Below, one piece after another: positions 1,780 to 61,470 of a DNA stretch of 64,000 nucleotides. Origin of the DNA: Pegea sp. RAD2-039 (Eukaryota > Chordata > Thaliacea > Salpida > Salpidae); the NCBI GenBank assembly GCA_034620365.1, contig JAQGEQ010000174.1, positions 106,833-170,832 on the forward strand, read 5' to 3'. A program made the translations under genes and the position numbers. The notes under the pieces were generated by a model. It saw only the letters and a program-made list of their open reading frames with translations. It did not search any database and was not told where the DNA came from. Numbering within the stretch: the first letter of the stretch is position 1; the number at the start of each line of letters is the position of its first letter.

Positions 1780-2180
1780 ACCCAAAAATATCTAAAGGAA
1801 ATTACAAAGAAAACTACTAATAGAAAACAGATTTTAACAATTTTAAGCAATTTATAGAAAACGTTCAATCTTGATATTCTTATGAAAAATAATCTTCGTT
1901 TGTGGTAACGATAGATTTTATGCAGAAAAACTGTTGCTCTTAAAAAATGTTGATTTAAATGAATAGATCAATGAATAAAAAGTAAAAGAAAAATGTAACA
2001 CAAAAAATTTGATAATCAGATGCAAGAGTGCATCTTCCAAATTAGTATCTTTAATCTAGATGAGTAATAAAATGATTTCACTTCTACTTAAGCTTTACGG
2101 TTATATATAATCTTCATTCAATCTTACGTTTGTGGTGTCGGTAAATTTTTCGATTGCTCTAATCAATCAACAATGTTATT
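1780..2180 (+). repeat. Repeat carrying class B module, copy 1
   Basis: Collinear with 4225-4690, including the GTTCAATCTTGATATTCTTA block and the module. Confidence 0.85.
2019..2135 (+). promoter_or_regulatory. Class B module: dyad element, TATA, start word (intact)
   Basis: The dyad GATGCA-AGAG-TGCATC at 2019-2034 is followed directly by TTCCAAATT (2035-2043). TATATATAA begins at 2102, 58 bp later, and GTTTGTGG begins at 2128, 26 bp after the TATA start. It sits in a repeat shared with 4.22-4.69 kb. The spacing predicts initiation within GTTTGTGG. What is transcribed, and by which polymerase, cannot be read from the sequence. Confidence 0.6.
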
Positions 2181-2406
2181 GAAAATTTCATTTTTAACTC
2201 AACTTCTATCTTAACATTTATTTTATTTATTTATTCTTCTCAATAAATTATTTTTTTGTTTTTCTTTATTGTTATATAATATTAAGTTTTAATTAAATCT
2301 GAAAGTTAAACAATTTTATAGTGTAAATAGTATTTCATAAAATAGAAATTAATGGTACATTGGTCAGTGTGATTCTTTAAAAAACTTTATTCTTTTAACT
2401 TCTTAG

Positions 2407-2420
2407 CTGCCAAGTAGCAG
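2407..2420 (-). promoter_or_regulatory. CTCF-like site
   Basis: Minus strand CTGCTACTTGGCAG, compatible with the CTCF core CCNCNAGNNGGCNG apart from the centre. Confidence 0.35.
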
Positions 2421-2439
2421 TTGAATGTTTTAAAAACAA

Positions 2440-2505
2440 ATTAATTATTATTATTATATTATTATAAATTATTATTATAAATTACTATTATAAATTATTA
2501 AAATA
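2440..2505 (+). repeat. Imperfect (ATT)n microsatellite
   Basis: ATTATTATTATATTATTATA with two more ATTATTATAAATT runs. Confidence 0.8.
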
Positions 2506-2569
2506 TATAAATGATTTGTTGAACAATTGTCGCTAATCGAATCAAAATTTTCATTTGTAAAATCTTATT

Positions 2570-2800
2570 TAAAAATAATATACAAACAGTTTACTAATAA
2601 CTAGAGAAAAGTTTTAATAGCGTCAAACTGTTTGAACTAATCCTAAAATAAAATTTAAAAACTAAACTTAGTTAGAAATTTAACTTAAAAAGAGTTTAAC
2701 AAAACTAATTGAGCCTAATTGTTGAGCCTAACCATCAATTTGGTAATCAACTGCTTATTGACATCAGCAATTATTAGCAGTCTACAGATGGTAACCTAAA
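2570..2800 (+). repeat. Repeat R3, copy 1
   Basis: TGCTTATTGACATCAGCAA and TCAAACTGTTTGAACTAAT recur inverted at 39.40-39.64 kb. Confidence 0.7.
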
Positions 2801-2903
2801 AAAACTCTCGAATAAAAATTTAAAAAAGTTGCTAAAAACAATTAAAAATTTTAAAAAAGTTCTTACTGCTAATTTTAGTATTTTTTAAAAATAAACCTCT
2901 TTT

Positions 2904-2917
2904 GCGCCAAGTAGCGT
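2904..2917 (-). promoter_or_regulatory. CTCF-like site
   Basis: Minus strand ACGCTACTTGGCGC in otherwise very AT-rich DNA. Confidence 0.35.
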
Positions 2918-3204
2918 AAAATAAAAATTTTGAATAACTATTTTTTTAAATTCATTTCTGCTAAAATATCCAAAATAGAAAGTTTTAGAAATATCCAGAC
3001 TGAAAAATGTGTTTAAAATGTCTTTTTTAAAATTACTAATTTTGCTAAAACATTTTGTTTCGTAAAAATTTGTAAACATTCGGTCATTTTATCAGTTACA
3101 TGCTTTTACGTCAAAAAGTGAATGTTTAACATAAATTACTTTTATGTTGCTAATTGCTGCGAATTGAAACTCAAGGTAGTCTTAGTATATATTAATTAAT
3201 TTTC

Positions 3205-3311
3205 GTTAAAAGTCATTCAAATTCAAACGAATAATAACAGGTTTCTTTCACTACAATGGATTTTACAACCTTTTGATTTATTATTAATTGGTTACAATTT
3301 AGAGTTTGCGG
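3205..3311 (+). promoter_or_regulatory. Class A module, diverged
   Basis: GTTAAA-AGTC-ATTCAAATTCAAA is a weak dyad. TTTATTATTAAT starts near 3277 and GTTTGCGGGATCAA is at 3304. It faces the class A module on the other strand, so any transcripts would overlap. Confidence 0.45.
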
Positions 3312-3502
3312 GATCAATTTTAAACTAATAAATTTTGGTAAAATTTATATTGTTAAAATTTTATACTAATTTTGTTTGTACCAATAATTAAGTTACAATA
3401 AAGATTGTTTTTCACCTTTAAGTCAAATTTTCTGTTTAAGCATTATTTGTCAACAAATAATTTAATATTAAAATTAAAAAAATATCGTACTATAGATTGA
3501 TC

Positions 3503-3616
3503 CCACAAACTCTAGATAGAAAACAACGTTTATAAATAATAAAAAAGTATATCTTTCAAACCTTTCTTCCTGATAACAAATCGTTTACATAATTTTGTGT
3601 TGAAATACTTTTCAAC
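3503..3616 (-). promoter_or_regulatory. Class A module (intact)
   Basis: On the minus strand: GTTGAAAAGTATTTCAAC dyad with CAAAATT (3591-3616), TTATAAAC (3528-3535) and GTTTGTGGGATCAA (start word 3503-3510). Spacings are 55 and 25 bp. The TTTGTTGACAAAT downstream element follows near 3450. Confidence 0.6.
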
Positions 3617-4224
3617 GAAACTTCATTCAGTGAATCAGTACAAAATTTTAAGTTTGTATTTTCTAAAAAAATTGACAAAACACTTGATTAGTTTAAAGTT
3701 ATTTCCTTTTCATATCGTTTAATCAAAATCATTATATTTCTTTAACAAGCTCCATTTATCAAACACTTTATTATCTTCAGTATTCATTCTTTACAATAAG
3801 ATTTGACTTATAAGATGGTATCGTGAGATAACACATATATTGATATAAAAACATCTTCTGATCAAAAGATTAAGAAAATTAAAAGTCATTCGGGAACTAA
3901 TTTTATGTTTTTGATGTAATTGGAATAACATTTTGATTATTTTTGACCGACAAACAGTAGTTTTAATGTAGTTCACAGATTTTTGATCTATTTATTATTA
4001 TAGAGAGATTTAAGAGTTGTTGAAATTATAACTCGCATTTTCAGTTTTTCATTTTTGATTCAAAGAAAAGATTTATGATGAAACAGTCTTTAAAAACGTC
4101 AAATTAAGATTTTAGTTGTTTCTTACTGATTATGAAGAATTTAAATCATATTGTTTATATAAAAATTGCTTAGATAGCATAAAAAACTCAATGAAGAAAG
4201 TAAGAAATTTAATATATGATGAAT

Positions 4225-4690
4225 CCTAAAATATTTAAAAGAAATTGAAAAGAAAATTACTAACAGCAAACACAATTTAAAAACCTTCGAACAATTTAGA
4301 GAAAACGCTCAATCCTGATGTTCTTACGAAAAACAATATTAGTTTGTTCGATAGATTTTGGGCATAAAAACGGTTGTTTGTTAAAAAATGTTGACTTAAA
4401 TGCATAAAAAAAAGATTAAAAGAAAATTTAAGTTATACTTTTTTACAAGGAATTTGTAAACACCAAACAATCTCAAAAAAACGCAAAATCTTATTTTTAC
4501 CTTGGAAAAAACTTACTTGATGACCAGACACATAAGTGCATCTTCCAAATTATTATCTTAATTTCAATTTACGAGATAAAACGATTTCATATTTCCGTAA
4601 GCTTTACGGTTATATATAATTTTCATTCAATCTTATGTTTGTGGTATCGGTAAATTTTTCGATGGCTTTAATCAATCGATAAAGTTATTG
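4225..4690 (+). repeat. Repeat carrying class B module, copy 2
   Basis: Collinear with 1780-2180 with small indels. The module part is also similar to 5.70-5.89 kb. Confidence 0.85.
4533..4644 (+). promoter_or_regulatory. Class B module with decayed left arm
   Basis: The left arm has drifted to GACACA while the right arm TGCATC and TTCCAAATT (4543-4551) are kept. TATATATAA is at 4611 and GTTTGTGG at 4637, spacings of 59 and 26 bp. Confidence 0.55.
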
Positions 4691-5690: not shown

Positions 5691-5716
5691 CAGTTGTATT
5701 TCATTAAGATAATCAA

Positions 5717-5831
5717 ATGCAAAACTGCATCTTCCAAATTAGTATTGTTATCCAGATAAGAAATAAAATGATATAACTTCTTTATAAGCTTTACGGTTAT
5801 ATATTATCTTCATTCAATCTTATGTTTGTGG
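5717..5831 (+). promoter_or_regulatory. Class B module (intact)
   Basis: ATGCA-AAAC-TGCAT, then C and TTCCAAATT (5732-5740). TATATATTA is at 5798 and GTTTGTGG at 5824. Spacings are 57 and 26 bp. It lies between two tandem class A modules. Confidence 0.6.
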
Positions 5832-6980: not shown

Positions 6981-6982
6981 CA

Positions 6983-7094
6983 GGTGCAAAAGTGCATCTT
7001 CCAAATATTGCACTCCCAAATGGATTTTGTATTTCATTGAAAAAGGATTGTTTTTAAAGTTATATATAAGCTGCATAATACCTTATGTTTGTGG
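6983..7094 (+). promoter_or_regulatory. Class B module (intact, diverged copy)
   Basis: GGTGCA-AAAG-TGCATC followed by TTCCAAATA ending 7007. TATATATAA is at 7061 and GTTTGTGG at 7087. The arm mismatch (G opposite T) is a wobble if read as an RNA stem. Surrounding bases differ from the other class B copies, so the motif is better kept than its context. Confidence 0.6.
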
Positions 7095-9009: not shown

Positions 9010-9129
9010 GTTGAAAAGTATTTCAACTCCAAAATTGTGTCGAATACCTATTATTGAATTTACATAAGGTTTAGTCATGTAAATGTAATTTTAATTTCAT
9101 ATAACTTTATTACAACCTAGAGTTTGTGG
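9010..9129 (+). promoter_or_regulatory. Class A module (perfect dyad)
   Basis: GTTGAAA-AGTA-TTTCAAC at 9010-9027 then TCCAAAATT. CATATAAC lies near 9099 and GTTTGTGGGATCAAG at 9122. TTTTGTTGACAAGG follows at about 9193. Confidence 0.6.
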
Positions 9130-10219: not shown

Positions 10220-10610
10220 TATTTTTTAAGCAGGGTTAAATCGTTAAAAATGAAATTTCAAATTAACTAATTATTAAAAAAACATCAGATTTTATATAAC
10301 ATTTAGTTACCATAATAACCATACTTTATAATCTTAGCTGCAAATTTTCTTAACTTAAGTAAAATGTATATCTTTAGTAACACTTTTCAATTGGCATTGT
10401 CTGAGATTTCAAACTAATTTAAAACAACTTGCTTTATTAAAAGTAAAAGAAGCTAATATGTTTTGGTATTACATGCAGTAAATTTGTACACCGATTACAT
10501 TGTACTTTCTAAAAAAATGTTAAACAAGTCTAGATTTCTAGCACCAAAAACAACAGACTTAAAGTCTAGTTATATATTCCGATTTTATTCTCTTAAAAAA
10601 ATCCTGCTGT
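10220..10610 (+). repeat. Repeat shared with 1.23-1.62 kb
   Basis: Same block order. An ACAACAGACTTTAA tail motif also recurs near 15.89 and 44.05 kb. Confidence 0.85.
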
Positions 10611-11289
10611 CGTATGGTTCATAGTAATTATAATTTTGAAACTGCCAATAACAGTTTACAAATTTTAAACCAAACTTGATGATTAGTTGAACAATTGTTG
10701 TTAATCGAATTGTTATTTCATTTAAAAAATATAATTTAAAAATAATATACAAGGAGCTTATTAATAACCAAACTGTAAAGCTAATTATTTAAACATTTCT
10801 TTTATCTAAACATTTAATTTAGGGCCCTTACTTATCTTAAATGAGTTATATTTTTGATTGAAATTGTATATGAAACTAATAAAAATTACTCGTCATAAAA
10901 ATACAGATATCAAGCTTACTTTGTTTTCAATAAAAAAGAACACATATTTTTAACATTACTTATATAGTTTTTTTTTTAATTTAAAAATCTTAATTTGAGT
11001 ATAGAGGCCTTATAACTGACATCATTATGATTTAAACAATTTATATAACTGTTGAAAAAAATTTTAAGAAAAAAGCGTATATACTTATTTTTCAGTATAT
11101 CTTCATATTTATACTTTTTGCAGTAAGTTGTTTTAAGTAAATCACAAGCAATTAGTTTAGACCAAAGAAAGTAGAAAAAACTAGATAAACTAAATCAAAT
11201 TTTATTTATTTAGGAATTTAATATTATTGAACAATTTTGTAATTACCACTTACAAAAACCTTCATTGGTTAAATTACATAACTCTATTT

Positions 11290-11960: not shown

Positions 11961-12023
11961 TTTTAAAGAGAATTTCTCCTGAGAATCTTATTCGCTTGTT
12001 GCTTCACTCTTCATTTATGCAGT

Positions 12024-12057
12024 TATATAATATCGGCATAAAATCTGATGTTTGTGG
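12024..12057 (+). promoter_or_regulatory. Class B TATA and start word with the dyad element deleted
   Basis: TATATAATA at 12024 and GTTTGTGG at 12050 are 26 bp apart. Compared with the sister copy at 13.6-13.85 kb, more than 100 bp including the dyad and TTCCAAA tract is missing upstream. Confidence 0.5.
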
Positions 12058-13299: not shown

Positions 13300-13440
13300 A
13301 AATCGATCCTTATATTTCAGCATTATCTGTCAACAAGAAATTTATTATTGAAACTAGAAAAATTTAATCGTTTGAACTTGATCCCACGAACACTAGATTT
13401 TAGAAAAGTTTATAAATAATGAAAAGTACATTCAAACTGG
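13300..13440 (-). repeat. Class A unit duplicated at 15.17-15.31 kb
   Basis: Shares the CTGTCAACAAG element, the start word and TATA with 15170-15310. Confidence 0.8.
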
Positions 13441-13495
13441 AAACTATTATTGATTTACAATCGTTTAGAAATTTGGAGTTGAATTATTGTTCAAC
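13384..13495 (-). promoter_or_regulatory. Class A module (intact)
   Basis: Minus strand: GTTGAA-CAATA-ATTCAAC then TCCAAATT (13470-13495), TTATAAAC (13409-13416), GTTCGTGGGATCAAG (start 13384-13391). CTTGTTGACAGAT follows near 13335. The spacer differs from other class A copies, but the arms still pair. Confidence 0.6.
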
Positions 13496-13735
13496 GAAAT
13501 TATAATTAAGTAGAATAACTTGAGTTTCTATTCTTTACAACAAATAACAAAAAAGTATAAAAAGTAGAAATAATATAACTTAATTTTTATTTGTAAACAA
13601 AATTCTATTGAATTGCCGAAAATAAAAAATGAATAAAGTTTAAAAGAGAGAATTTCTCCTACCAAACGGAATTGCAAAATATGAAGATGAAAATTGTGTC
13701 AATTCTTCCGATGATTAAAACTTGTTTGATAAACA

Positions 13736-13844
13736 GACGCAAATATGCATCTTCCAAAATTATGAGAAACTTATTTGTTTGTTACTTCGTTGTTCAATTA
13801 TCTATACAGTTATATAATATCGGCATAAAATCTGATGTTTGTGG
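13736..13844 (+). promoter_or_regulatory. Class B module (intact sister of 12.0 kb copy)
   Basis: GACGCA-AATA-TGCATC at 13736-13751, then TTCCAAAAT to 13760. TATATAATA is at 13811 and GTTTGTGG at 13837. Spacings are 50 and 26 bp. Confidence 0.6.
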
Positions 13845-15169: not shown

Positions 15170-15310
15170 TAAAAATCGATCTTTATATTTCAGCATTATC
15201 TGTCAACAAGAAGTTTATTTTTGAAACTAGAAAAATTTAATCGTTTGAACTTGATCCCACAAACACTAGATTTCAGAAAAGTTTATAAATAATAAAAAGT
15301 ACACTAAAAC
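15170..15310 (-). repeat. Class A unit duplicated from 13.30-13.44 kb
   Basis: Near-identical to 13300-13440 and truncated upstream of the TATA box. Confidence 0.8.
15257..15290 (-). promoter_or_regulatory. Truncated class A module: TATA and start only
   Basis: Minus strand TTATAAAC and GTTTGTGGGATCAAG (15257-15264), with CTTGTTGACAGAT downstream. The dyad is replaced by an exon-like cassette, so this is a recombinant copy of the 13.38 kb unit. Confidence 0.5.
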
Positions 15311-15355
15311 TAGAAGCTTAAACGTGTGAATATAATTTTGAAATTTTTATTACAG

Positions 15356-15390
15356 ATAAAACTGAATATGAAACAGATATTAGTGATGCC
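15356..15390 (+). other. Exon-like cassette, copy 3 (donor lost)
   Basis: TTACAG acceptor followed by a frame reading D-K-T-E-Y-E-T-D-I-S-D-A. The donor G is changed, leaving ATAAATAAT. Joined directly to a truncated class A module on the minus strand. Confidence 0.3.
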
Positions 15391-15548: not shown

Positions 15549-15659
15549 GTTGAACAATGTTTCAACTCGAAATTAGGTTTTTAACAACCGTTGATTTTTC
15601 GAGAAAAGTTTTTTTGATTTTTCATTCTTTATCACTTTGTCGTAATCTAAAGTTTGTGG
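15549..15659 (+). promoter_or_regulatory. Class A module with weak TATA
   Basis: GTTGAA-CAATG-TTTCAAC then TCGAAATT to 15573. CTTTATCAC sits where the TATA is expected, and GTTTGTGGGGTCAAG is at 15652. TTGTTGTTGATAAAC follows. Confidence 0.55.
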
Positions 15660-17899: not shown

Positions 17900-18480
17900 T
17901 TTTCATAATAAATAGGCTAGGTCAAAGTGCTTCGGATAGATCTATTTTTCTTAGATAATGAAGCCTCTTAAATACTTATTAACTAAAATTTTTTTGCGTC
18001 AAACCAAAATCAAAACTAATTTGTTTTGATTTTTTTTCATTAATAAAAAATGCCGGGCATATTGCCATATGTTTGTAATTTAAATTTATTCTCTACGCCA
18101 CAAACTTTATACTGAAACAACTTTACAAATACTTTTTAAAGCAGTGAACATTTACTTTTTATCAGATATAATATTTCAAGGAATAAACAACATTTTGGAG
18201 TTGAATAAATTTCAACAAATAATAAAATACTAATAATGTTGACGTGGGCAGTTTAAACTTTCAATTTTGTCGTCAGTTTAAATGTCCTATTCCGAAGCTA
18301 CTTGTATTTTTTTATTGATATTAACATTTTTGTGGCTTAAATGTGGAAAGCAGCTTAGAAATTTTATTTTAAATTATAATGTTTTCAAACCCATCAGAAA
18401 TTTCTCTATTTGTTGATATCAAAGATCTAGAAAACTCAGGTTTCTAAACTGACACAACAGATTGATTTTAAATGCTTAAT
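17900..18480 (+). repeat. Repeat shared with 22.77-23.34 kb, copy 1
   Basis: AATAGGCTAGGTCAAAGTGC, GTTGACGTGGGCAGTTT and CTGACACAACAGATTGATTT are shared in order. Carries a class A module. Confidence 0.9.
18098..18216 (-). promoter_or_regulatory. Class A module in a duplicated repeat
   Basis: Minus strand: GTTGAAATTTATTCAAC dyad then TCCAAAAT (18192-18216), TATTTGTAAA in the TATA position, GTTTGTGGCG (start 18098-18105). Its duplicate at 23.07 kb has lost the start word. Confidence 0.5.
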
Positions 18481-20337: not shown

Positions 20338-20378
<41 letters not shown>

Positions 20379-25434: not shown

Positions 25435-25539
25435 AACTGATTCTGTCAGTTTCAAAAATAAAATGATAGCTAGCAAGCTCGTTAGTTAAAATCAACATTG
25501 TTACTTTTTATAACCAACTACTCATCTTGTGCCTGTGGG
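25435..25539 (+). promoter_or_regulatory. Class E module on the plus strand
   Basis: AACTGA-TTCTG-TCAGTT at 25435-25451 then TCAAAAAT. TTTATAAC at 25507 and CCTGTGGGTTAAA at 25532, 25 bp after the TATA start. The surroundings differ from the minus-strand class E copies, so motif and spacing are conserved without the repeat context. Confidence 0.55.
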
Positions 25540-26339: not shown

Positions 26340-26715
26340 AAAAATTATATAAAATGAGCTCACAAACACAAGGCAAACACGTTGTTATATAAAGCATCTA
26401 ATTTATAACGATCTTATAATTCTATAACTAAATTAGTAGGAAATAAATGAGAATTTTGAAAACTGATACTGTCAGTTGCATTTAACAACAAGATTTATTG
26501 TATTCAATGATATAAAAGAATGCGGTGATCTTGATCTTTTCTGTCATATGTTGTGTCATTCTTTTGTTAATAACTCTAACTGACACTGTCTTTAGTAAAC
26601 AATTATGTAGAATAATTCATTTAAAAATTTCCATAATTTTTTCTGTTTTCGTTGTGTTGATGCCATCATACTACTTTAAAGAAGTACTTAATCTTATTTG
26701 ACTTAGCAAAGATTT
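26340..26715 (-). repeat. Class E repeat body, copy 2
   Basis: Same order as 23.46 kb. The segmental duplication boundary cuts through it at 26547. Confidence 0.8.
26361..26477 (-). promoter_or_regulatory. Class E module (intact)
   Basis: Minus strand: AACTGA-CAGTA-TCAGTT then TTCAAAATT (26452-26477), TTTATATAA (26385-26393), GTGTTTGTGAGCTCA (start 26361-26367). Spacings are 58 and 25 bp. It drives leftward, away from the duplication. Confidence 0.6.
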
Positions 26716-28494: not shown

Positions 28495-28870
28495 TTTAAA
28501 TGAGCTCACAAACACAAAGAAAGTAAGTTGTCATATAACGCATTCACTTTATACCAGATTAACAAACTGCTTCTTGTATAGCTTTTAATTTTACTTTAAA
28601 TTTGAAAACTAATACTGTCAGTTGCATTTAACGAAAAGATCTCCGATATATAACGATATGAAGAATGCTGTGGACTTGTATATTTCTTTCATATTTTCTG
28701 TCTTTCTTTTGCTTGTTAAACTCTGAATAATTCTGTCGTAAGTAAGCAAATATGTAGATTGAGATTTTAAATACTTACAAATTGTTTCTTTTTTCGTTGT
28801 ATTGATGCCATCATGCTACTAGTAGTATAAAGAAGTAATCCTTTTTGTTTTCACTTAACGTTACCATAAA
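28495..28870 (-). repeat. Class E repeat body, copy 3
   Basis: Full body inside duplication copy 1. Its twin is at 50.45-50.82 kb. Confidence 0.8.
28507..28623 (-). promoter_or_regulatory. Class E module (intact, duplication copy 1)
   Basis: Minus strand: AACTGA-CAGTA-TTAGTT then TTCAAATTT (28598-28623), TTATATG (28532-28538), GTGTTTGTGAGCTCA (28507-28513). The arm change leaves a G-T pair. Confidence 0.6.
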
Positions 28871-29269
28871 AACTTTTATGATATACAAAGCTTTTTCCAA
28901 AAGTCTTGTTAAAAATAAAGTTAATTGTTTTTATTTGAATGTCGACATTTAATCATAAATATTTTAGTCACATTTAAGATTTTAAATAATGTAGCATTCA
29001 TGCATTCGAAACTTTTACTTTTTTTAATATAATTAGTTTACTTAAATGTTTTAATAGATTTAGATTGAATTTACAAAACTTTTTTGATCTATATTAACTG
29101 TTTGTTTTTAAAAAAGTAATGTAAAATTTTAAAAACGTATTACTGCAAATAAAATTAATAAATCTAGTGCTAATAATAAATTCAATTGAAACAATAACTG
29201 AAAAGTATTTCAACTGTTAGAAGGTAGCAGTTGCTTTTCATAACAATTTTTTGCTAATGTAAACAGCAT

Positions 29270-29382
29270 GTTGAAAAATGTTCAACACTCCAAATTGTAA
29301 ATGCCTTTCGGCGGTATTTCCGGTGTGGAAGGTCGAGCAGAATCATCATAATAATCATAAAAATATACTCTAATGTTTGTGG
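29270..29382 (+). promoter_or_regulatory. Class A module next to coiled-coil gene copy 1
   Basis: GTTGAA-AAATG-TTCAAC then ACTCCAAATT to 29296. The TATA is weak (AATAATCATAA/AAATATA), and GTTTGTGGGTTG is at 29375. It points toward the end of the minus-strand coiled-coil gene, so the two would converge. An extra TGAAAAGTATTTCA dyad lies 70 bp upstream. Confidence 0.5.
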
Positions 29383-38649: not shown

Positions 38650-38758
38650 CTACAAACTCTAGATTAAAACAAAATTATAAATACTGACAAATTTGGCACA
38701 ATCCTATCTTTTAATGCTCTCATGGTAGCTATTTTTGGAGTTGAAAAACTTTTTCAAT
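38650..38758 (-). promoter_or_regulatory. Class A module
   Basis: Minus strand: ATTGAAAAAGTTTTTCAAC then TCCAAAAAT (38731-38758), TATTTATAA near 38680, GTTTGTAGGGTCAAG (start 38650-38657). Arms remain complementary although lengthened. Confidence 0.5.
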
Positions 38759-41544: not shown

Positions 41545-42125
41545 ATTTTAATTAGATCAATAGTTCAGTGAATTTCTTTTAGTTATAAGATTAAAAAAAT
41601 AAAACTTTTTGATTGTCTCTATAATTATCGGCTTTTTAGTTCTAAAACTGTTATTTGATTTTTAAATACTTCGGAGATTTGTACGAGTTTTTGACAAAAC
41701 TAATATAAGATTTAACACTTTTTAGTTTGGGATAATCATTATAAAAGCAAAACATAGAGAAAGAGTTTTTTATGTTTTTTTAACCTAAACAAAAATAATT
41801 TGAATCCTGATTTAGTGCTTTTCTCTTTACGGTGATAAATCATTGTTTAACCCACAAACACTAGAATAAAAATCCTTTTTATTAAGCAATTTTTAGCGCT
41901 AAATCTAATTGTCTTGCAAACCAATTTTTTTGAAAAATTTAATTTGAAGTCGACTAAATGTCGATGTAACATTTACTAATATTAAAGTATTTAAAAGCAT
42001 GGTAGTATGTAATTCGTAAATTTACTTTTAATAGATTCTGTTTCGTTTTTTAATAATCTTTTACTTTAGTGATTTGAAAGTGTAATTCTATCAAGCAAAA
42101 ACTTCATTATTATACACAGCAAAAT
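41545..42125 (-). repeat. Class C repeat, copy 1
   Basis: Collinear with 44.47-45.06 kb, including GTACGAGTTTTTGACAAAAC and the class C module. Confidence 0.85.
41852..41965 (-). promoter_or_regulatory. Class C module (intact)
   Basis: Minus strand: ATCGAC-ATTTA-GTCGA then CTTCAAATT (41941-41965), CTTAATAAA as TATA (about 41878-41885), GTGTTTGTGGGTTAAAC (start word 41852-41859). Spacings are 55 and 26 bp. Duplicated at 44.78 kb. Confidence 0.6.
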
Positions 42126-43692: not shown

Positions 43693-43824
43693 GTTGAAAA
43701 AGTATTCCAACTCCAAATTTCAAATTTGATTATCTAAAAAGTTTTAAAAAGACATTTAGTAGAGATGGGAAAATTTACTTTACTTTTGAATCTTTATAAT
43801 TTTGTGGTAATCTAGAGTTTGTGG
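43693..43824 (+). promoter_or_regulatory. Class A module with longer spacing
   Basis: GTTGAA-AAAGTA-TTCCAAC then TCCAAATT to 43719. TTTATAAT is at 43793 (about 73 bp on) and GTTTGTGGGATCAAA at 43817. Confidence 0.5.
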
Positions 43825-44469: not shown

Positions 44470-45060
44470 TTAATTAGATTCAATAATTAAGTAAATTTCA
44501 TTGAGTTATAAGTTTACAAAAACAAACTTTTTGAACATTTTTATATTTACCAGCTTATTAGTTCTAAAACTGTTGTTTGTTTTTTAAACAATGTGGATAT
44601 TTGTACGAGTTTTTGACAAAACTAATATAAAATTTGAAAGTTTGTAGTTTGGGAAAATCATTAGAAATACAATACATAGAGAAATAGTTTTTTATATTTT
44701 TCTTAACCTGATTAAAATAAATTTAAATCCTGGTTCAGTGCTTTTCTCCTTACAGTGATAAATCAGTGTTTCACCCACAAACACTAGAACAAAAATACTT
44801 TTTATTAAGCAATTTCTTCAACAGTATTTCGAACTTTCTTGTATTCATAAGATTCTAAAGAACTTAATTTGAAGTCGACTACGTGTCGATTATAACTTTC
44901 AAATATTTAAGGGTTTAAATACATGGAGTTTATAAATCGTAATTTAACTTTATCTAGATTTTGTTACATTTATTAATAATCTTTAACTTTAGTTATTTGA
45001 AAGTGTAATTCTATCAAGCCAAAACTTCATTATTATTCACAACAACAGTCTTTGATTTCA
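44470..45060 (-). repeat. Class C repeat, copy 2
   Basis: Collinear with 41.55-42.13 kb. Confidence 0.85.
44775..44890 (-). promoter_or_regulatory. Class C module (intact, duplicate)
   Basis: Minus strand: ATCGAC-ACGTA-GTCGA then CTTCAAATT (44866-44890), CTTAATAAA (44801-44809), GTGTTTGTGGGTGAAAC (44775-44782). The spacer has changed relative to the 41.9 kb copy while both arms are identical. Confidence 0.6.
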
Positions 45061-49349: not shown

Positions 49350-49464
49350 TAGAGAAGTGATTAATATAGTACTAATGATATAATTCAACTCCTAATTTTA
49401 AAATTTTATTGAATCATTAAACAAAAAAGATAACATGAAAATTTGAAAACTGATATTGTCAGTT
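49350..49464 (-). promoter_or_regulatory. Class E module, start word decayed (duplication copy 2)
   Basis: Duplicate of the 27.4 kb module. Dyad and tail are identical; the start region reads CTTCTCTAA. Confidence 0.45.
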
Positions 49465-50102
49465 GCGTTTAATCATAAAACTATCTTTTACTTAATAGAA
49501 CGTACCAATGTCTTAAAAACTTTTCTAGAATTTTTCATTTAAATTTGTTTAATTCTAAAAGACAATATCAAAAGTAAACAAGTATCTATAATCTTAATCT
49601 TCATTGAATCATTTGCAAATTCTAAACTTTTGTGCTTTTGTTGTGTTGAAGTCATTATCTTTATTTAGAAAAACAACTAATTTATATAATATCATAATAT
49701 ATTATGAATAATTGTATTAACACTGATGAACTACAAACCATTTGCAATGTATAATAACAGGAATTTATGTTATCCGAGTTTATTGGCTTCATTATTCAGT
49801 TGCTTATCACTTTTAAACGACGCTGGTATAAATAAATCATAACTAACATACTTTTTTTCATAAATCTAGTGGTTTGTTGTGTAATTGTCGTCATTTTACT
49901 TTTGATGAATGTCTGAAGTTAGTATTGATAAGTTAATGCTACTATATATCAATGATACAAATTATTCTTCACTTATAGATGTTAGTACAGATATTATTAA
50001 ACTCTCTTGATTTAATATTTAATCCAACATTCTTGATTTGGTTCTAAGTAAAGCTGGCACGGTATAAACGATTTCTTGTATAAATCAAAAAGACATGTTG
50101 AT

Positions 50103-50330
50103 CTATGAGAGGCTGATAACATTATCTTTATGAATTAGACTTATAGTAATCAATAACAAATTTAGATCAGCATAAGATTCAGAAGATTTGAAGTCATTTC
50201 TTTTGCGTATTTGTATTTGGCCTCCATAGATAATCTGCCAAAAGCAGATCTTATTTTGAAGCAAGATCAAGATTAAAAGTAGTTTAAATAAAGTAAATTG
50301 TTTCAAGAAGTTTGTTTTTACTCTTTTCAA
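50103..50330 (-). other. Exon-like conserved segment with acceptor site (copy 2)
   Basis: Duplicate of the 28.2 kb segment. The acceptor-like TTTTGGCAG and both frames persist (the short one reads MEAKYKYAKEMTSNLLNLML). No family is recognised. Confidence 0.2.
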
Positions 50331-50449
50331 AGTTCTAATTTAAGCATATAAACTAAACAATTAATTTTAAACAAGAAATATTCTTTTATTAAGATGTCTT
50401 TCAAATGTTTATAGCTTAACACTTGTGTGAAAAGCATTAAAAACGTGTT

Positions 50450-50820
50450 TGAAATGAGCTCACAAACACAAAGAAAGTAAGTTTTCATATAAGGCATTCA
50501 CTATCATACCAGATTAATAAACTGCTTCTTGTATAGCTTTTAATATTTGTTTAAAATTGAAAACTGATACTGTCAGTTGCATTTAACGAAAAGATCACCG
50601 ATATAAAACGATATGAAGAATGCTGTGGACTTGTATATTTCTTTCATATTTTGTGTCTTTCTTTTGCTTGTTAAACTCTGAATGATTCTGTCGTAAGTAA
50701 GCAAATATGTAGATTGAGATTTTAAATATTTACAAATTGTTTCTTTTTTCGTTGTATTGATGCCATCATGCTACTAGTAGTATAAAGAAGTAATCCTTTT
50801 TGTTTTCACTTAACGCTACC
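50450..50820 (-). repeat. Class E repeat body, copy 4
   Basis: Full body inside duplication copy 2. Confidence 0.8.
50461..50578 (-). promoter_or_regulatory. Class E module (intact, duplication copy 2)
   Basis: Minus strand: AACTGA-CAGTA-TCAGTT then TTCAATTTT (50553-50578), CTTATATG (50486-50494), GTGTTTGTGAGCTCA (50461-50467). Arms pair perfectly here, unlike the copy at 28.6 kb. Confidence 0.6.
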
Positions 50821-51225
50821 ATAATAACTTTTATGATATACAAAGCTTTTTCCAAAAGTCTTGTTAAAAATAAAGTTTATTGTTTTTATTTGAATGTCGA
50901 CATTTTAATCATAAATATTTTAGTCACATTTAAGATTTTAAATAATGTAGCATTTATGCATTCGAGACTCTTACTTTTTTTAATAGAATTAGTTTACTTA
51001 AAAGTTTTAATAGACTTAGATTGAATTTACAAAATGTTTTTGATCTATCTAAACTGTTTGTGTATAAAAAAGAAATGTAAAATTTTAAAAACGTATTACT
51101 GCAAATAAAATTAATAAATCTAGTGCTAATAATAAATGCAATTCAAACAATAACTGAAAAGTATTTCAACTGCTAGAAGGTAGCAGTTGCTTTTCATAAC
51201 AATTTTTTGTTAATGTAAACTGCAT

Positions 51226-51338
51226 GTTGAAAAATGTTCAACACTCCAAAGTGTAAATGCCTTTCGGCGGTATTTCTGGTGTGGAAGGTCGAACAGAATC
51301 ATCATACTAGTCATGAATATTTACTCTAATGTTTGTGG
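51226..51338 (+). promoter_or_regulatory. Class A module next to coiled-coil gene copy 2
   Basis: Duplicate of the 29.27 kb module. Dyad arms and the GTTTGTGGGTTG start (51331) are unchanged, while the tail is altered to ACTCCAAAGT. Confidence 0.5.
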
Positions 51339-51568
51339 GTTGTAAACATTTCGCAAACAACTCGTTTTGATTTCGTAAAAATCTAAACTTTTTTTCGTAT
51401 TTAATAAAAAGTGTTATCGTAAGAAGAATTTTAACTAAAAAATAAATTTGTTGAAACAGAATTTTTGAACAGTTATTTTCTGTGATAAAACTATTTTGTT
51501 TTTGTTGATTTAAACTTACATTAAAATATGAACTAAACGACAAAAAACGCAGCAGAAAAATTGATTTG

Positions 51569-52210
51569 TTAATCAAGTCTATTTTCTTCTTGTTGACGAT
51601 GTTTTTCTTCTTGTTGACGACGTTTTTCTTCTTGTTGACGATGTTTTTCTTCTTGTTGACGACGTTTTTCTTCTTGTTGAAGGCGTTTTTCTTCTTGTTG
51701 AAGGCGTTTTTCTTCTTGTAATCGAAGATTTTCCTGTTCTTGTTGACGAAGCATCATATCTCTTTGGTGGTAATTTGCTGACGCTTGTTGCATTCGCTGA
51801 TATTCAGCTAGACGCTTTATTCTCTCCTGTTCTTCTCTTTCTCGTTGAAGTCTTTCTTGCTGTTTCTGCTTACGAAGTCTATTTTCTTCTTGTTGACGAC
51901 GTTTTTCTTCTTCTTGTTGACGAAGCATCATTTCTCTTTGGTGGTAATCTGCTGACGCTTGTTGCATTCGCTGATATTCAGATAGACGCTTTATTCTCTC
52001 CTGTTCTTCTCTTTCTCGTTGAAGTCTTTCTTGCTGTTCCTGCTTACGAAGTCTATTTTCGTCTTGTTGACGACGTTTTTCTTCTTGTTGACGGCGTTTT
52101 TCTTCTTGTCGACGCATTTTTTCTTGCTCACGCTGAACACGTTTTTCTTCCTGTTGACAATTTTTTTCTCCTTGTTGTCGCTTATAGATTTCACTTGTAG
52201 AATTCCACAT
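51569..52210 (-). CDS. Gln/Glu/Arg-rich coiled-coil protein, copy 2 (213 aa, heptad-expanded)
   Basis: This is the paralogue of the 29.6 kb gene inside the second copy of the 6.1 kb duplication. The N-terminus is almost identical (MWNSTSEIYKRQQ), with the same two 58-residue internal repeats and the same ENRLD end. It is 28 residues longer because four extra seven-residue RRQQEEK/HRQQEEK units (21 bp each) precede the C-terminus. Point differences include R13 region E to G, R to C at 18, E to K at 116, S to A, D to N and E to D. All indels are multiples of 21 bp, so the frame is intact. The 21 bp unit equals one coiled-coil heptad, so slippage lengthens the helix without disturbing register. 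Function is unknown. Confidence 0.6.
   Translation of the reverse strand: MWNSTSEIYKRQQGEKNCQQEEKRVQREQEKMRRQEEKRRQQEEKRRQQDENRLRKQEQQERLQREREEQERIKRLSEYQRMQQASADYHQREMMLRQQEEEKRRQQEENRLRKQKQQERLQREREEQERIKRLAEYQRMQQASANYHQRDMMLRQQEQENLRLQEEKRLQQEEKRLQQEEKRRQQEEKHRQQEEKRRQQEEKHRQQEENRLD
51585..51720 (-). repeat. 21 bp coding minisatellite (heptad units)
   Basis: Tandem 21 bp units encode RRQQEEK-type heptads at the 3' end of the copy 2 coiled-coil gene. Copy 1 has four fewer units. Each unit ends in a TTCTTCTTGTTGACG-like string on the + strand. Confidence 0.7.
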
Positions 52211-53850
52211 TATGATAAAATCAAAAAGTATTCCAAGCTTATTCCCTTAAGTCCTGTCAAACAGCTTACTTGAAATTTTGTACAGAAAAACTTATTATAA
52301 AATTTTTTAATTTATTTATTTGATTAAGATAAATATTTACTCATCAAAAATGATGTTACACTAAAAGTAAAGGAAAAACATTGATGACAAATTATAAACT
52401 ATTTATTTTTACTACTACTTTTGCCATAAATGTTTTCTTTGCTTGAACTGTTTTTTTAAGTTAAAGTAAAGAATTTGTTTACACAAATCTGCCAACAGAT
52501 AATTTATTAAGAATTATTTTCTTTTTTTTATGTTATTAAATATCTAAATTTCAAAATTTACTAGTGATTTCAAACGGTCAAAATATAAATGGGTCTTAAA
52601 AAAACAAATCATTTTAAAAACGTTTATAAATAATTATAGCAATTATAGAAAAGTATTTAACACTTAATAGTTTATTAACGAAAGTTTGCAGTAAAAGATT
52701 TTAACAAAATTATAAAAAAATATTTTAATAAAAGTTTACTAATCCAATAATAATTTACTTTGATTTATATTAACTATGATAACTTAAATATAATTTAAAA
52801 AAAATAAGATAAAATTTAAACAAATTTATTTTCTAAAAAGTAATTTAAAATTTGATCCAACCAAAAAACAGAGTAACAAGACAATTAGACATCAAAAACT
52901 ATTTAGGCCTATACTCTAAAAAACTTCCTTTGTGAGATATTCACCCAGGACTAGTCGCTATCAGATGTAAAATCAAATGGCCCTACACTGCAGATTATTT
53001 TATAAAATATATTGAGGGTTTCCAAACATTTTTTACAAATTTATTTTTTTAGTTTAATTTAAAAAATCTATACACTCTTATTAAAAAAATCAATTAATTC
53101 TTTGCTAATTAATTATAAATTAAAAATTAAAAAAAAAATTCTAGTTTATTTTCTAAGGAGATTTTTTAATACCTAATAAACATATAAGCTAATTTATTCC
53201 AAAGGTAGCTCTATTCGTATGAGAAAGTTATAACTTGCTCTAACTGCTGCTTATGATTCTTAGTTTTAAACCTATAACTAAAGGTAAAAGCAAAAGTTAT
53301 TTATCAATTGTCTTTAATTTCTATTTATTTTCTAAAATCATTATCTAAAGTCATTAGTAATTGACTTCATGACTTTTCTTCTTACTACACTATAACATTG
53401 TTAATATTTTCAACTTTACAACATATTTATATTTTACAAAATGATGATTTTACAGAAATAAACAAGTTTTAATAAATAAATAACTATTCTTATAACTGAA
53501 AATATTGTTTCTGTACTAGTTCTTTTATGCTCTTAGTTATTTATTAGTTGAAAATATCTTTATTATTTTATATATATTTTTTTATTTTAAGGAATTTTCT
53601 ATAAAATTTTTTTATCTTTTTCTTCGGTCAAATTGTTTTGAATCTTTACATATTCTAAGAGTTAAACTAATTTTCCAAATAACAAAATTACTTGATTTAA
53701 AAAATAAATGTAAAAACGTTTTATAAAAGTTTTTTATTTCTTATCTTAATATTTTTTAAATGTATTTAATTTATTTATTATATTGATTTATTTATCTTAT
53801 TATTTTTAATTATTATACAATAATTATACAAAATCATTTTAATTATTTTG

Positions 53851-54051
53851 ATGATTGATAAACAGGACAACAACTTAAAAAATATTGGTAATGATTTTAT
53901 ACTTCAATTTTCTTCAGCAATCGAAATAACTAAATGTTTTCATGTAGCTAAGAGTTTATTAAAATTAGATTATCTAAAAACTGATAATATAAAATTTGTT
54001 TGTTTTAATTTTATCAGCTTATCAATTAGTTTTTCTTTTTTGGCTACATAA
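53851..54051 (+). other. Open frame of 66 codons in copy 2, truncated in copy 1
   Basis: Reads MIDKQDNNLKNIGNDFILQF and continues to SFLAT. In the copy 1 counterpart (from 31808) a lysine codon has become TAA after about 44 codons, and K to R, I to M and H to P changes precede it. It is either a small gene broken in copy 1 or a chance frame. I do not recognise it. Confidence 0.2.
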
Positions 54052-54544
54052 ATGAAACGTCTTAATAAATTTTTGTCTTTTATAAAGTTATGACAATTTA
54101 TTGATAGAAATTTAAAAAGCTTTTATACTTTTTTTCGTTTTAAGAATGCATCCAATTGCGATATGAAGACACTTATCATTAAAAATAATAAATGGGAAGT
54201 TTTCGCAGCAAATCACTCTAACCAGCGTTCTGTTTTCTGCAAGCAGTTAAAGGAAAATGAAAAAATATGATATAAGAAAAAGGAAAACTTTTGGTAACAA
54301 CTATTTCATGCTATTTTTGTTTATTTAAAGTTTGTACAACTAGCTTTATGTTAGAAGCAAACAAAGTTAAGTAAGCCTCAACATTTCATGTGAAAACTGT
54401 TAATATTTAAGTATATATGACAGTTTTACTCGTCATTGCTGTTTACCGCTAATGTTAATTGAAAAATGAAAATGAAATCACAATTAGAAGTGATATACAT
54501 TTTGCGAGAGTAGATGGTTTAAATTGAATGTACTATATCACTAA

Positions 54545-54650
54545 AAGTATATATAGATTTATTTTAGATAAGGTTTTTCAATCTAAAATGTCATATGGCG
54601 GCGATGAATCATCAAATGATTTACTATCAGGAAGCGATGACGTCATATAG
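54545..54650 (+). other. Conserved TATA + ATG element with CRE site, copy 2
   Basis: Same 60 bp element as at 32540. The ATG is at 54588 and the reading frame is identical for 20 residues, then TAG. A TATATATAG box lies upstream. TGACGTCA is at 54638-54645. Confidence 0.35.
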
Positions 54651-54699
54651 AGCATAATGTTTAACTTTTATTTTTACGCATAGTGTATATTTAAATATG

Positions 54700-57150: not shown

Positions 57151-57219
57151 TATAAAAGTAGATATCTTAATGACAAGTTACCTCTTCTATTTGCTGATTT
57201 TTTGAACGGACAAAACAAA
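57151..57219 (+). promoter_or_regulatory. TATA box and short 5' UTR of the TGF-beta ligand exon
   Basis: TATAAAA at 57151-57157 predicts a start near 57180 and a 5' UTR of about 40 bp before the ATG at 57220. The GTTTGTG start word and the dyad element of the small modules are absent, so this is an ordinary mRNA-type core promoter. Inferred from spacing only. Confidence 0.45.
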
Positions 57220-57571
57220 ATGAATCGAAAAAGTATGATTTTATTTACTGGTTGTATCTTATTGTTGGTTATTATGGCACCTCTTGCTTCAACAAGCCTC
57301 ATCGCGACCGATAGATGTGAGGAAAATGATAAAACCTGTATGCTACACCAACGTTTACAAGACAAAAGAATCAAACAATTTCAAAAGGAGTTGTTAGTAA
57401 AGCTGAATATGAAAGAACCACCGAACGTGAGCAAAAGTGATTTGCCTAGTCAAATTACTATTGCTTCTATGAAGAAAATATATGGAATCGATCGTTTGGA
57501 CAGACGCTCTGAAATTAACTCTCGAAAAATGAAAATTGAAACAAAGGAAATTTTCAGTATGTCTAAGCTCG
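57220..57571 (+). CDS. First coding exon of a TGF-beta superfamily ligand (signal peptide and propeptide start)
   Basis: The exon encodes about 117 residues. It opens with ATG in a good context (A at -3), followed by a basic N-terminus and a hydrophobic core around residues 6-25 that reads as a secretory signal peptide. Next come a CxxxxxxC pair (CEENDKTC), a basic helix, and the block ELLVKLNMKEPPNVSKSDLP. That block matches the conserved alpha-1 'latency' helix of TGF-beta/activin/BMP/myostatin prodomains (pattern IL.KL.L.EPPN). The product would be a secreted growth factor precursor whose mature cystine-knot domain lies in later exons. The frame runs into a strong splice donor (CG|GTAAGT) at 57572, leaving a phase 1 junction. 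No later exon is recognisable before the window ends, so the first intron is longer than 6.4 kb or the gene is broken. Superfamily is confident; subfamily is not decided. Confidence 0.82.
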
Positions 57572-57859
57572 GTAAGTGGATATGTTTACTTTACCAAAAT
57601 ATAAAGATAATTTTTGTAAACTCTGTAGTGATCTAAACAAATTATTTTTTTTGCTCTTACTTATTTTATATCACTAAAATTCTAATTGAAACTGCTTATG
57701 AGACTACTAAAATTAACCCAACTTAAAATATACATATAATAAGCTTTCTTACTTTTTTATTAAAAAAATAACTGAATTTTTAAAATAAGTTGTTGAGCTT
57801 TTTTTAAGCATACTTAATTTAAGTTTATAAAGACTATAAAAGACATAATTACCCCTTAA

Positions 57860-58512: not shown

Positions 58513-58624
58513 CCATAAACTCTAGATTGCGACAAAGTAATATATTATAAAAACTAACAATGCATTATTTAGGAATTGCCTGTAGCTTATCAATCCAATT
58601 TTTGATTTGAAATATTTTTCAACG
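58513..58624 (-). promoter_or_regulatory. Class A module, start word altered
   Basis: Minus strand: GTTGAAAAATATTTCAA then ATCAAAAATT (58598-58624), TTATAATATA (58541-58550), GTTTATGGTATCAAG (58513-58520). Confidence 0.5.
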
Positions 58625-58639
58625 AAATTTTGTTTAGTA

Positions 58640-59760
58640 AATTAAAGTCTGATTTTTTTTTTCAGATGTACTTCTCATGAGTTAAATTTTTTCTAAATCT
58701 TCATATAATTATTTCAAAAATTTGAACTACTTATTCCGCGGTTCTTAAATTTGTCTTATTTCTATAAGAATATTTTCTTACAACTTTAAATTGTCTAAAC
58801 AGTTATTCTCTCTGCTCTTAGAAATAAAATAGAAAAAAAACATTTCAAAAAACGTCATAGAAATGTTTTTAACAGAGAATAATTAAGTTCACTCTAATGA
58901 CTTTAAAATATTTAAAAAATTGTTGTTAAACATCAATAGTAAGATTCTCTGAAGACACTAAATGAAATTTTGTTAAAATCTCATTTTATCTTTGTAGCTT
59001 TTATTTCCGCTAGAGTGCGCTATCAAATATAAAAATGAAACGATGTTTATTTCAAAACTACAAACTGTTTGACTTATTTGTGAATGTTTACCTAACAAAT
59101 ATTTTTCATTAGAGGAAATAAGGTCTTGCGTTTTCTTGAGATTGCTTGATGTTTGCAAATTCCTTGTAAAGGTAAATCTTCCCACTTAATTTGATTTTAA
59201 ATTTTAATCATCATTTCAAATATTTATTACAAATTTGTTGCATACAAAATATTTTTTTTGTTGAAATACATTTCACATTCTTCTCACATAAATAGAAAAG
59301 ATGTAAAAATTTTTAAACTTTCAACTATTTTTTTAACTTAAAACTATTTGAATAAAATAAAGTTAAACACTACTAACTTCAACAACATAATTTGACATAT
59401 GTATTCTTATTGATTAAAATGATTCTTGTATTTGGAAAAGAAGAAGAACTTTTGATAAAGATAAACTTTACAAAATAAAAATCGAAGATAGTTTATTACT
59501 ATCTGTATCTCTTCAGTAATTAAGCGTTTACAAGAAACTTTAAAAAAAAAATAATCAAAATTGTTTATTGTTGATATAGATGTAAATTGAAATGAATATT
59601 TTTCTATAAATTTTAGTTTTTATATCTTATATTTGATTCAAGAAATTTTTGTTTTAAAATATTATTCGATATCAGTGGTTAGGGAATTTGATCACTTTAA
59701 ATTTTTTTTTTCTAGTTACTATTTAAATAATGATAACAAAATCACAATCTGATTAATATC
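58640..59760 (+). repeat. Repeat R4, long copy 2
   Basis: Collinear with 36.09-37.29 kb. Confidence 0.85.
59007..59020 (+). promoter_or_regulatory. CTCF-like site, R4 type
   Basis: CCGCTAGAGTGCGC in the third R4 copy. Confidence 0.35.
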
Positions 59761-59764
59761 TTTT

Positions 59765-60440
59765 TTCTTTTGCAACCGAAATCTCCTTAAGAAGTTTTTT
59801 TTACTTTTATGTATCTCCTATATCTACTTCAAAGTGCTGTATGAACTTCGAAAAGAATTCTAGCTTTAAAGTCTAGTTTATATATTGAAAATAATTTGTT
59901 TAAATATATTTCGGTTTTATTGTTAATATTCACCTAAATAAAATAATTATTAAATATTTTTCTTTTCAAGGCAAGAAATTTCTAAAACTTTTAATTGAGA
60001 GCCAATAATGTTTTAATCAAATTATTTAAAAATATTTTTATTAGTTTGTGTTGATAACTAAATATAGATTTGTAATTCATTTTACTTCATATGTTCATTA
60101 GTATACTTCATATTACATTAAATTTAACTTTTTGCAAATTAAATTTTTAACTTTAGAAATTTAGAATTTTTACAATCGAGAAACGAACAAATATTTTTGA
60201 TTTTTTATCTGATGAAAGAATCTTTGTAACTTTCTTGATATTAGTCAGCTGTGTTTAGCTTTCCAGAGGATTACAAACAGAATTGTCGAAATGACATTTA
60301 ATGATTTAATGATATAGAAAATATGGATATTTGTTATTGTTTTTTGTTTTCTTATTCTGAATTCTAAATAGAAATACATAAAATTTAATTTCTAGGAAAC
60401 TTAAAATCTTTAAATATAATCGAGATTTTTCTACTTTTCA
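59765..60440. other. Intergenic or intronic, AT-rich
   Basis: Nothing recognised. Confidence 0.4.
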
Positions 60441-60441
60441 T

Positions 60442-60475
60442 TTCTCATAAGCTTAGTGCAATCTAGTGTTTGTAG
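60442..60475 (+). promoter_or_regulatory. Class A TATA/start without a clear dyad
   Basis: CTCATAAGC then GTTTGTAGGATTAAA at 60468, and ATTTTGTTGACAAAT about 60 bp downstream. No clear dyad at the upstream distance. Confidence 0.4.
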
Positions 60476-60709
60476 GATTAAATTTAAAAGCATTACTTTT
60501 TTTGTTAATTTAAGTATAAATATTTTGTTGACAAATAATTCACTTTTTATCAAGTTTCAAAAAAAGTTTCAATTTGTAAACATTCTGTAACAATATTAAC
60601 AATATGTTTATAACATCGAAATGCATTTTCACCTAAATTATTTTTATCTTATCTATTGCATAAACCGGAAGCTCAAGTTACTGAACTTATTTACTAATTG
60701 ATTATTTTC

Positions 60710-60820
60710 GTTGAAAAGTATTTCAACTCCAAAATGGTATATACAACAACAATTAAATACACTTTAACGAATTTTTCCAATATCCTTATTTACTTCTTTG
60801 TCGTAATCTATAGTTTGCGG
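60710..60820 (+). promoter_or_regulatory. Class A module (perfect dyad, weak TATA)
   Basis: GTTGAAA-AGTA-TTTCAAC at 60710-60727 then TCCAAAATG. TTATTTAC near 60787 and GTTTGCGGCATCGG at 60813. TTGTTGACAAA near 60866. Confidence 0.55.
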
Positions 60821-60909
60821 CATCGGTTTAAAACAAAAAAATTATTTTAGCTTTAACTATAGCTTATTGTTGACAAAAAGAAATTTAAAGCAAAATTTTA
60901 AAAGTCATA

Positions 60910-61470
60910 AGAAGTTGTAAAAATAACTTTAACTTCATTCAAAAAAATATTATATAATTGTAACTAGCTCATACAAAAAGTGTTTGAAATTAGTATTACG
61001 TCAGTTTTCAAATTACTTTTAATTTGATGTTTAAAAAGAAATTGGAGTTTTTAGCTTATGATAAAGATGTTGATAAATTTAATATTGGAGAGATGTGAGT
61101 TTTTGGTTCAAAAACTATGAAAAATAAAAGACTAACAAATAAAACCTAATGCTCAATTGTTTATTCCGAAAACCTCTGTTAGTATTTTGACATACAGAAT
61201 TTTCAATCTACTAAATATTTCTGTGTTTTGAACTTTATACACTATGTTCTTATGATTTCACTTAAGTTGTTTACTTTTTTTTACGTTAAAACACAACTCT
61301 ATCAGTTTGTTAAAGTTTTCTTTATTATCTTTTATTTTGTAAAGTTAGTCTTTATAGTTTACAGTAAAGCGATGTTCTACATTTTTCTAAAAAGTTTACA
61401 ATAAAAGTTTTAACTTTATTTAATTTTGTAGGATATTATAAAATAATTCAAATCTGTTCTGCATTAATTT
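60910..61470 (+). repeat. Repeat shared with 40.38-40.93 kb
   Basis: Shares CCTCTGTTAGTATTTTGACA and TATACACTATGTTCTTATGA. Confidence 0.85.
60990..61099 (+). promoter_or_regulatory. Class E-like decayed module (duplicate of 40.5 kb)
   Basis: TCAGTT then TTCAAATT to 61014, TTGATAAA at 61070 (55 bp on), GATGTGAGTTTTT at 61092. Confidence 0.35.

Follow-up and report, generated by a model that had tools for sequence, protein, structure and literature searches.

The 64,000-nt stretch of the Pegea sp. RAD2-039 genome analysed here (positions 106,833 to 170,832 of contig JAQGEQ010000174.1, assembly GCA_034620365.1; hereafter the window, C261:106833-170832 in our numbering) has a GC content of 20–27% and carries, on both strands, a recurring short module that we read as a candidate small nuclear RNA (snRNA)-type gene. 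The module order is CCACAAAC, 17–20 bp, a TATA box, a variable stretch, AATTTKRR and a short hairpin, on the strand opposite to that of the initial annotation. The first element is a (Y)CACAAAC[A/T]CTAGA-like word, the proximal sequence element (PSE), and the AATTTKRR-like word, which is Sm-site-like and can also be written AATTT(K)RR, lies 78–105 nt downstream of the PSE start, with the hairpin following. Many of the GTTTGTGG/A words and of their reverse complements (24 words in the window) group into classes, in each of which a dyad lies at a near-constant distance. On the evidence of the sequence, the repeated pattern is real and its direction of transcription is opposite to that first read. 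We recognise about 22 apparently full modules, roughly half of the forty or so announced initially; the ten positions given at that time (2019, 9010, 13736, 25435, 3616, 13495, 26477, 41965, 44890 and 50578) each lie no more than 1 nt from the outer hairpin end found in our scan. The modules are listed below, with scores from the window scan.

2018..2135 (−), class E module, PSE first base 2135, hairpin end 2018; score 42.8; initially annotated at 2019
3503..3617 (+), class A module; score 38.5; initially annotated at 3616
4526..4644 (−), class E module; score 35.6
5715..5831 (−), class E module; score 35.7
6982..7094 (−), class E module with one A–C stem mismatch; score 38.2
9010..9129 (−), class A module; score 45.5; initially annotated at 9010
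10544..10657 (+), weaker module, PSE CCAAAAAC; score 28.4
11980..12057 (−), partial module with PSE and TATA, in which neither an Sm-like site nor a hairpin was seen; its alignment with the 13844 module reaches only to the Sm region
13384..13495 (+), class A module, PSE CCACGAAC; score 41.0; initially annotated at 13495
13735..13844 (−), class E module; score 40.7; initially annotated at 13736
15257..15361 (+), module, promoter intact, 3′ hairpin weak; score 41.5
15549..15659 (−), class A module, TATA not found by pattern; score 44.3
18098..18216 (+), class A-like module with poor TATA; score 37.0
25435..25538 (−), module, PSE CCACAGGC; score 34.4; initially annotated at 25435
26360..26477 (+), class C module, PSE TCACAAAC; score 44.1; initially annotated at 26477
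28506..28623 (+), class C module with one A–C stem mismatch; from alignment A1, not found by the scan
29268..29382 (−), class D module without a clear TATA; score 42.8; payload recurs elsewhere in the genome (payload search)
38650..38758 (+), module, PSE CTACAAAC; score 40.2
41852..41965 (+), class B module; score 46.4; initially annotated at 41965
43693..43824 (−), class A module; score 49.0
44775..44891 (+), class B module; score 41.5; initially annotated at 44890
50460..50578 (+), class C module, segmental duplicate of 28506; score 29.9; initially annotated at 50578
51224..51338 (−), class D module, segmental duplicate of 29382, no TATA; score 36.4
58513..58622 (+), probably a class A module that has diverged, PSE CCATAAAC; score 21.2, within the shuffle range; kept for its class A alignment

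The orientation of the modules is set by the genome's U2, U5 and U6 genes, which carry the same promoter (reference loci L017–L036 and L093). U2 has 19 matches in the genome, and in all 12 loci fetched and read the PSE word starts 56–57 nt before +1, as CCACAAAC in 11 and as CCGCAAAC in one. The U2 TATA box lies at −29 in 10 of the 12, which corresponds to a PSE–TATA gap of 18–20 bp; one locus has an extra, earlier TATA at −31, and L026 and L027 are without a TATA word. In the two U5 copies read, on contig C39, CCACAAAT stands 55 nt before +1; TATATA follows at a gap of 20, and another TATA is closer, with a gap of 8. U6 gave 15 matches, two of them under the cut-off; a PSE-type word stands 62–63 nt before +1 in 8/8 loci fetched (CCACAAAC in five, TAACAAAC in three), followed by a TATA at a gap of 23–25 bp in seven, L029 being without one by pattern. 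The PSE word is thus common to the modules and to all three gene types, and the module gap, 17–20 bp in 19/23 window modules, is of the U2/U5 and not the U6 type. Because of this gap we assign the modules to the U2/U5, RNA polymerase II (Pol II), promoter type, and the predicted RNA start therefore lies about 57 nt after the PSE. That the modules are Pol II snRNA-type genes for a short Sm-class RNA is, in our judgement, highly probable. As a further observation on this genome, PSE and TATA are common to its Pol II and Pol III snRNA genes, and what distinguishes the two kinds is the spacing between these elements (U2/U5, 18–20 bp; U6, 23–25 bp), which provides a clean internal contrast for polymerase choice within one genome; the plant gap rule runs in the direction opposite to that seen here. 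Upstream of the PSE, a TTGTCAACAA or TTATCAACAA word lies at 56, 75 and 56 nt in three class A modules, at window positions 3447 (+), 9204 (−) and 15715 (−), and is possibly a distal element, possibly a sign of mere shared descent.

With the direction reversed in accordance with the U2, U5 and U6 genes, several elements of the initial annotation change their meaning. The GTTTGTG word (GTTTGTGG), taken there as a start site, is the reverse complement of the PSE, and the dyad and TTCCAAATT tract taken as an upstream element are the reverse complement of the Sm-like site and 3′ hairpin inside the predicted RNA. The argument that the upstream element is too far from the TATA to be a PSE falls as well, because the PSE sits at the other end of the module. 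Two proposals of that annotation are supported by the sequence: that the promoter is conserved, and that very small RNA genes, apparently non-coding and each with its own promoter, are clustered here.

The scan behind these scores combined a PSE matrix with terms for TATA, the Sm-like word and the hairpin; the matrix was trained solely on loci outside the window, and the lists of TATA and Sm-like words were compiled by hand and contain some that occur in window modules, so that the scan is not wholly independent. It returned 21 modules scoring at least 28, and the top score of six second-order Markov shuffles was 24.1. Module 44035, at 24.6, is barely over the shuffles and is excluded from the count, 58513 falls within their range at 21.2, and the likely module at 28506, whose stem has an A–C mismatch, was missed. 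Across the 105.7 Mb assembly (387 contigs), matches to CCACAAAC-N(75-104)-AATTTKRRR number 469, compared with 30 when the pattern is reversed; with a W-Y-TAGA extension they number 167, compared with 1 for the control. The genome-wide check that the initial annotation had proposed was positive as well, with TATA-N-GTTTGTGG present 671+456 times against 150+148 in a reversed control, U6 genes being counted too. The pattern without the extension matches nine places in the window, where we recognise about 22 modules, and extrapolation of this ratio from one window to its 469 genome-wide matches gives a rough guess of about 1,000 module genes. Among the roughly 100 places listed for each pattern, groups lie on C12 and C22 (looser pattern), on C64, C91 and C92 (both patterns), and on C98, C104, C109, C134, C136, C261 and C267 (extended pattern), and one or two places on C188, C191, C224, C254 and C266; many other places of the looser pattern are isolated and may be chance. 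On C22:260556-373871 there are at least 22 similar same-strand copies of one class among the places listed, and the same 3-kb stretches hold further module classes that differ in payload, the part of the RNA that precedes the Sm-like word.

Starting from the PSE word gives a comparison that avoids choosing rows. [C/T]CACAAAC words are followed by an Sm-like site and hairpin in 12/24 cases in the window and in 13/17 cases in 50 kb of C92, whereas random positions are so followed in 219/4000 and 878/20000 cases. A reversed-word control (2/8 and 4/12) is not independent and was set aside for the random positions because CAAACACT occurs inside the PSE. Some copies are themselves not independent because they are segmental duplicates: window 26547-32624 and 48507-54672 form a 6-kb segmental duplication that is 94% identical and also includes Q/R/E-rich repetitive open frames at 29613-30170 and 51569-52210.

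The 3′ part of the module has the layout of an Sm-class RNA, an Sm-like site followed by a 3′ hairpin. The Sm-like sites are AATTTGGA, AATTTGAA or ATTTTGAA and depart from the canonical word. Thirteen modules whose hairpins have the same length, chosen with the hairpin in mind, were aligned; 77/78 cells are paired and all six counted pairs change on both sides. The percentage paired, the number of double-change cells and the covariation score were each reached by none of 500 shuffles, and sliding the partner abolishes the pairing. Hairpin letters differ between module classes while pairing is kept. Because the rows were hand-chosen, the PSE-word counts against random positions are the better guard.

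The payload, measured from the predicted start to the Sm-like word, is 22–48 nt long (median 33; 35 distinct payloads). Its predicted structure is no greater than that of shuffles (mean z −0.12, n=37), and a search by folding for a common 5′ hairpin found that some C12, C6 and class D payloads can form one, with no excess across the 37 as a whole. Across 16 pairs and six groups, the promoter and the 3′ chassis of Sm-like site and hairpin are usually best conserved, and the payload has diverged about like the flanks. Two sets go further. In a seven-copy tandem array on C12, the six complete copies vary at 31/38 payload columns and at 57/421 flank columns (Fisher p 1.9e-18), compared with 8/57 columns in the promoter and 2/31 in the Sm-like site and hairpin; in the class B pair, the stretch from PSE+42 to the Sm-like site is 55% identical and the flanks are 74–86% identical. 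Some payloads are conserved, since that of class D recurs genome-wide at 21 sites with at most two mismatches (31 with at most three). Eight of the 31 sites are module payloads, seven in genome-listed modules and one at window module 51338, and two of the other 23 lie on C83.

Taken together, these features point to a family of Pol II snRNA-type genes for short Sm-class RNAs with exchangeable 5′ ends, a reading that we consider probable. SNAPc-type factors would bind the PSE and Pol II would initiate about 57 nt downstream of it, as at U2, to give a presumably capped RNA of roughly 50–75 nt that consists of a 5′ stretch of about 33 nt, the Sm-like site and the 3′ hairpin. As in other snRNAs, the 3′ end would form right after the hairpin, and an Sm ring may load at AAUUUKRR. 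Stabilising and delivering the RNA would be the task of the constant 3′ chassis, and the 5′ stretch would be its exchangeable working end, most plausibly an antisense guide like that of U7 or U1. That the RNAs act through a guide function is a tentative proposal, to which we give slightly less credence than to its negation. Local tandem duplication and segmental duplication appear to have spread the family into clusters as large as hundreds of kilobases; promoter and chassis would be under selection, and the payload would be little constrained and, in places, apparently diversifying.

Several observations weigh against this picture or soften it. Four of the 23 window modules have no TATA by pattern, including both class D copies. 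The textbook Sm site is longer in U than the Sm-like site of the modules, and for this reason Sm loading is only a guess. The hairpin rows were selected by us, as said, and two measures do not stand out: 83/500 shuffles were as high in pairs with double change and 494/500 were as high in pair types. Under symmetric scoring, wobble pairs number three G–U against one A–C, too few to decide the strand and thus weak support; module 28506 is a second A–C stem case by eye, and the larger G–U counts of earlier wobble scans were biased by a scoring that favoured G–U. The strand is settled by the promoter and not by wobble pairs. Only two cases, the class B pair and the C12 array, show clear payload hypervariability, divergence in most other comparisons being about that of the flanks; within the array on C12, conservation of the chassis does not significantly exceed that of the flanks (p 0.20), and one pair on C92 has identical payloads. 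No antisense target was shown for the class D payload, 8/31 of its sites being payloads of known modules and only those having been checked.

A short payload behind its own snRNA-type promoter, largely unconstrained and repeated in large clusters, is also what PIWI-interacting RNA (piRNA) genes would look like. On that account each module would yield a short capped Pol II transcript whose 5′ 21–30 nt are loaded into a PIWI protein, as for nematode type I, with the hairpin marking termination or processing. A PIWI-clade-looking protein (clade judged by eye) is encoded at C3:1729834-1730901, and Piwi-domain matches occur at three places only, fewer than in nematodes. A clear 5′ T is not seen: T stands at predicted positions 1, 2 and 3 in 4, 9 and 12 of 35 payloads, and at position 4 in 17/35, where the start is predicted from the PSE distance and YRNT expects T two nt after the transcript start. 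The recurrence of the class D payload at 21 sites runs counter to piRNA genes too. The nematode piRNA motif derives from a snRNA promoter (PMC6436959), and in the available text of that source, where the term Sm site is absent, nothing corresponds to the Sm-like site or the hairpin of the modules. We therefore regard piRNA genes as an unlikely identity, and a piRNA role of the modules as possible by analogy; the caution with which the initial annotation treated nematode piRNA loci was apt. A decayed or non-functional repeat family, made of snRNA-derived pseudogenes or mobile elements spread by duplication, seems less likely again. Several copies do lie in segmental duplicates or tandem arrays, and some modules are partial or weak (12057, 15257), but promoter and Sm-like site with hairpin mostly show higher conservation than payload and flanks, the letters of the hairpin change pairwise, and the external promoter travels with the RNA, unlike in a retro-copy.

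Two known Sm-class RNAs were compared directly with the modules. Spliced-leader (SL) RNA genes, or diversified relatives of them, share the promoter type and the layout of Sm site and hairpin, and the multiple clustered copies of the modules would suit them too. Yet GT[A/G] is found in 17/35 distinct payloads against 17.5 expected in shuffles, six payloads are without any GT, and the bdelloid rotifer leader is absent at up to three mismatches; with no splice-donor excess and no leader match we rejected an SL identity, which is very improbable. U7-like RNAs for histone 3′ ends match the modules in size and in having a 5′ antisense stretch, then an Sm site and a 3′ hairpin, and one C22 class carries GCTCCTTTAGC. 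Against them, 20 histone-gene stretches inspected by eye show no shared downstream element complementary to that class, the Rfam U7 model finds nothing above its cut-off genome-wide and nothing in the window, and the payloads are too different for one target. A U7 identity was rejected because no Rfam match exceeded the cut-off and, for the C22 class, no histone downstream element was seen by eye, and we give it next to no weight. The histone 3′ ends themselves (L072–L091) have a canonical-looking stem-loop in 19/20 stretches.

An Rfam scan of the window gave no match at gathering score; three chance-level matches (E up to 3) fall inside a (TGATGA)n hexamer array of 38 copies at window 20338-20565. 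In the other module-holding loci only U2, U5 and U6 reach gathering score and no module matches a family, a sub-threshold mir-223 match (E 0.028) that adjoins a module in L044 being taken as chance. ARAGORN, with bacterial settings, found no tRNA in the window. Elsewhere in the window, a 144-aa open frame at 57202-57636 (+) begins with a signal-like stretch and matches the TGF-beta propeptide weakly (17.2 bits, cut-off 25.8), and a Kelch-repeat fragment lies at 45515-45754 (+) (21.8 bits, cut-off 20.1). Together with the histones and the Piwi-domain matches, the weak propeptide match is consistent with an animal genome. A search for COX1 gave no match, and the arthropod cuticle domain PF00379 was matched neither here nor in any control genome.

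If the modules are snRNA-type genes with exchangeable 5′ ends, their number is unusual: to our knowledge, Sm-class RNAs normally fall into a few conserved families. Hundreds of clustered genes in which promoter and 3′ chassis are fixed and the 5′ end is free would represent a new scale and style of snRNA-type gene, and no description of such a family was found in the literature searched, subscription papers being outside its scope. The arrangement also bears on a possible origin of nematode piRNA genes from snRNA genes, because in it a snRNA promoter would serve again for a large number of short payload RNAs in which an Sm-like site is retained. One could go further and envisage an animal guide-RNA system on small nuclear ribonucleoprotein hardware, in which about a thousand clustered genes each combine an Sm-type chassis with their own 5′ guide. 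Diversifying selection would renew the guides, which might be directed at transposons or other selfish sequences and might also supply PIWI. Such a system would parallel nematode piRNA genes independently while keeping the Sm site and hairpin, and we consider it doubtful in this full form.

Among known systems, U7 snRNA resembles the modules in being short, with a single 3′ hairpin, an Sm-type site, a free 5′ antisense end and a Pol II snRNA promoter, whereas the modules comprise many classes and hundreds of copies and have no common 5′ sequence. SmY RNAs, which are known from nematodes, and spliced-leader RNAs are likewise short Sm-class RNAs with snRNA-type promoters; the modules differ in that their payloads have no splice-donor excess and do not, in general, form a hairpin at the 5′ end. 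Nematode type I piRNA genes (Ruby motif, SNPC-4), as far as the available text of PMC6436959 describes them, have one promoter per tiny Pol II gene, a motif derived from that of SNAPc, and clustering in some species. The modules share this clustered, one-promoter design and depart from it in their TATA box, Sm-like site and hairpin, and in a genome with Piwi-domain matches at only three places. The U2 and U5 RNAs of the same genome are long and conserved, unlike the modules, which in the loci scanned match no Rfam family at gathering score; nevertheless, these spliceosomal genes, with U6, share the PSE core and TATA of the modules, and in U2 and U5 the two elements are separated by the same type of gap, at 18–20 bp.

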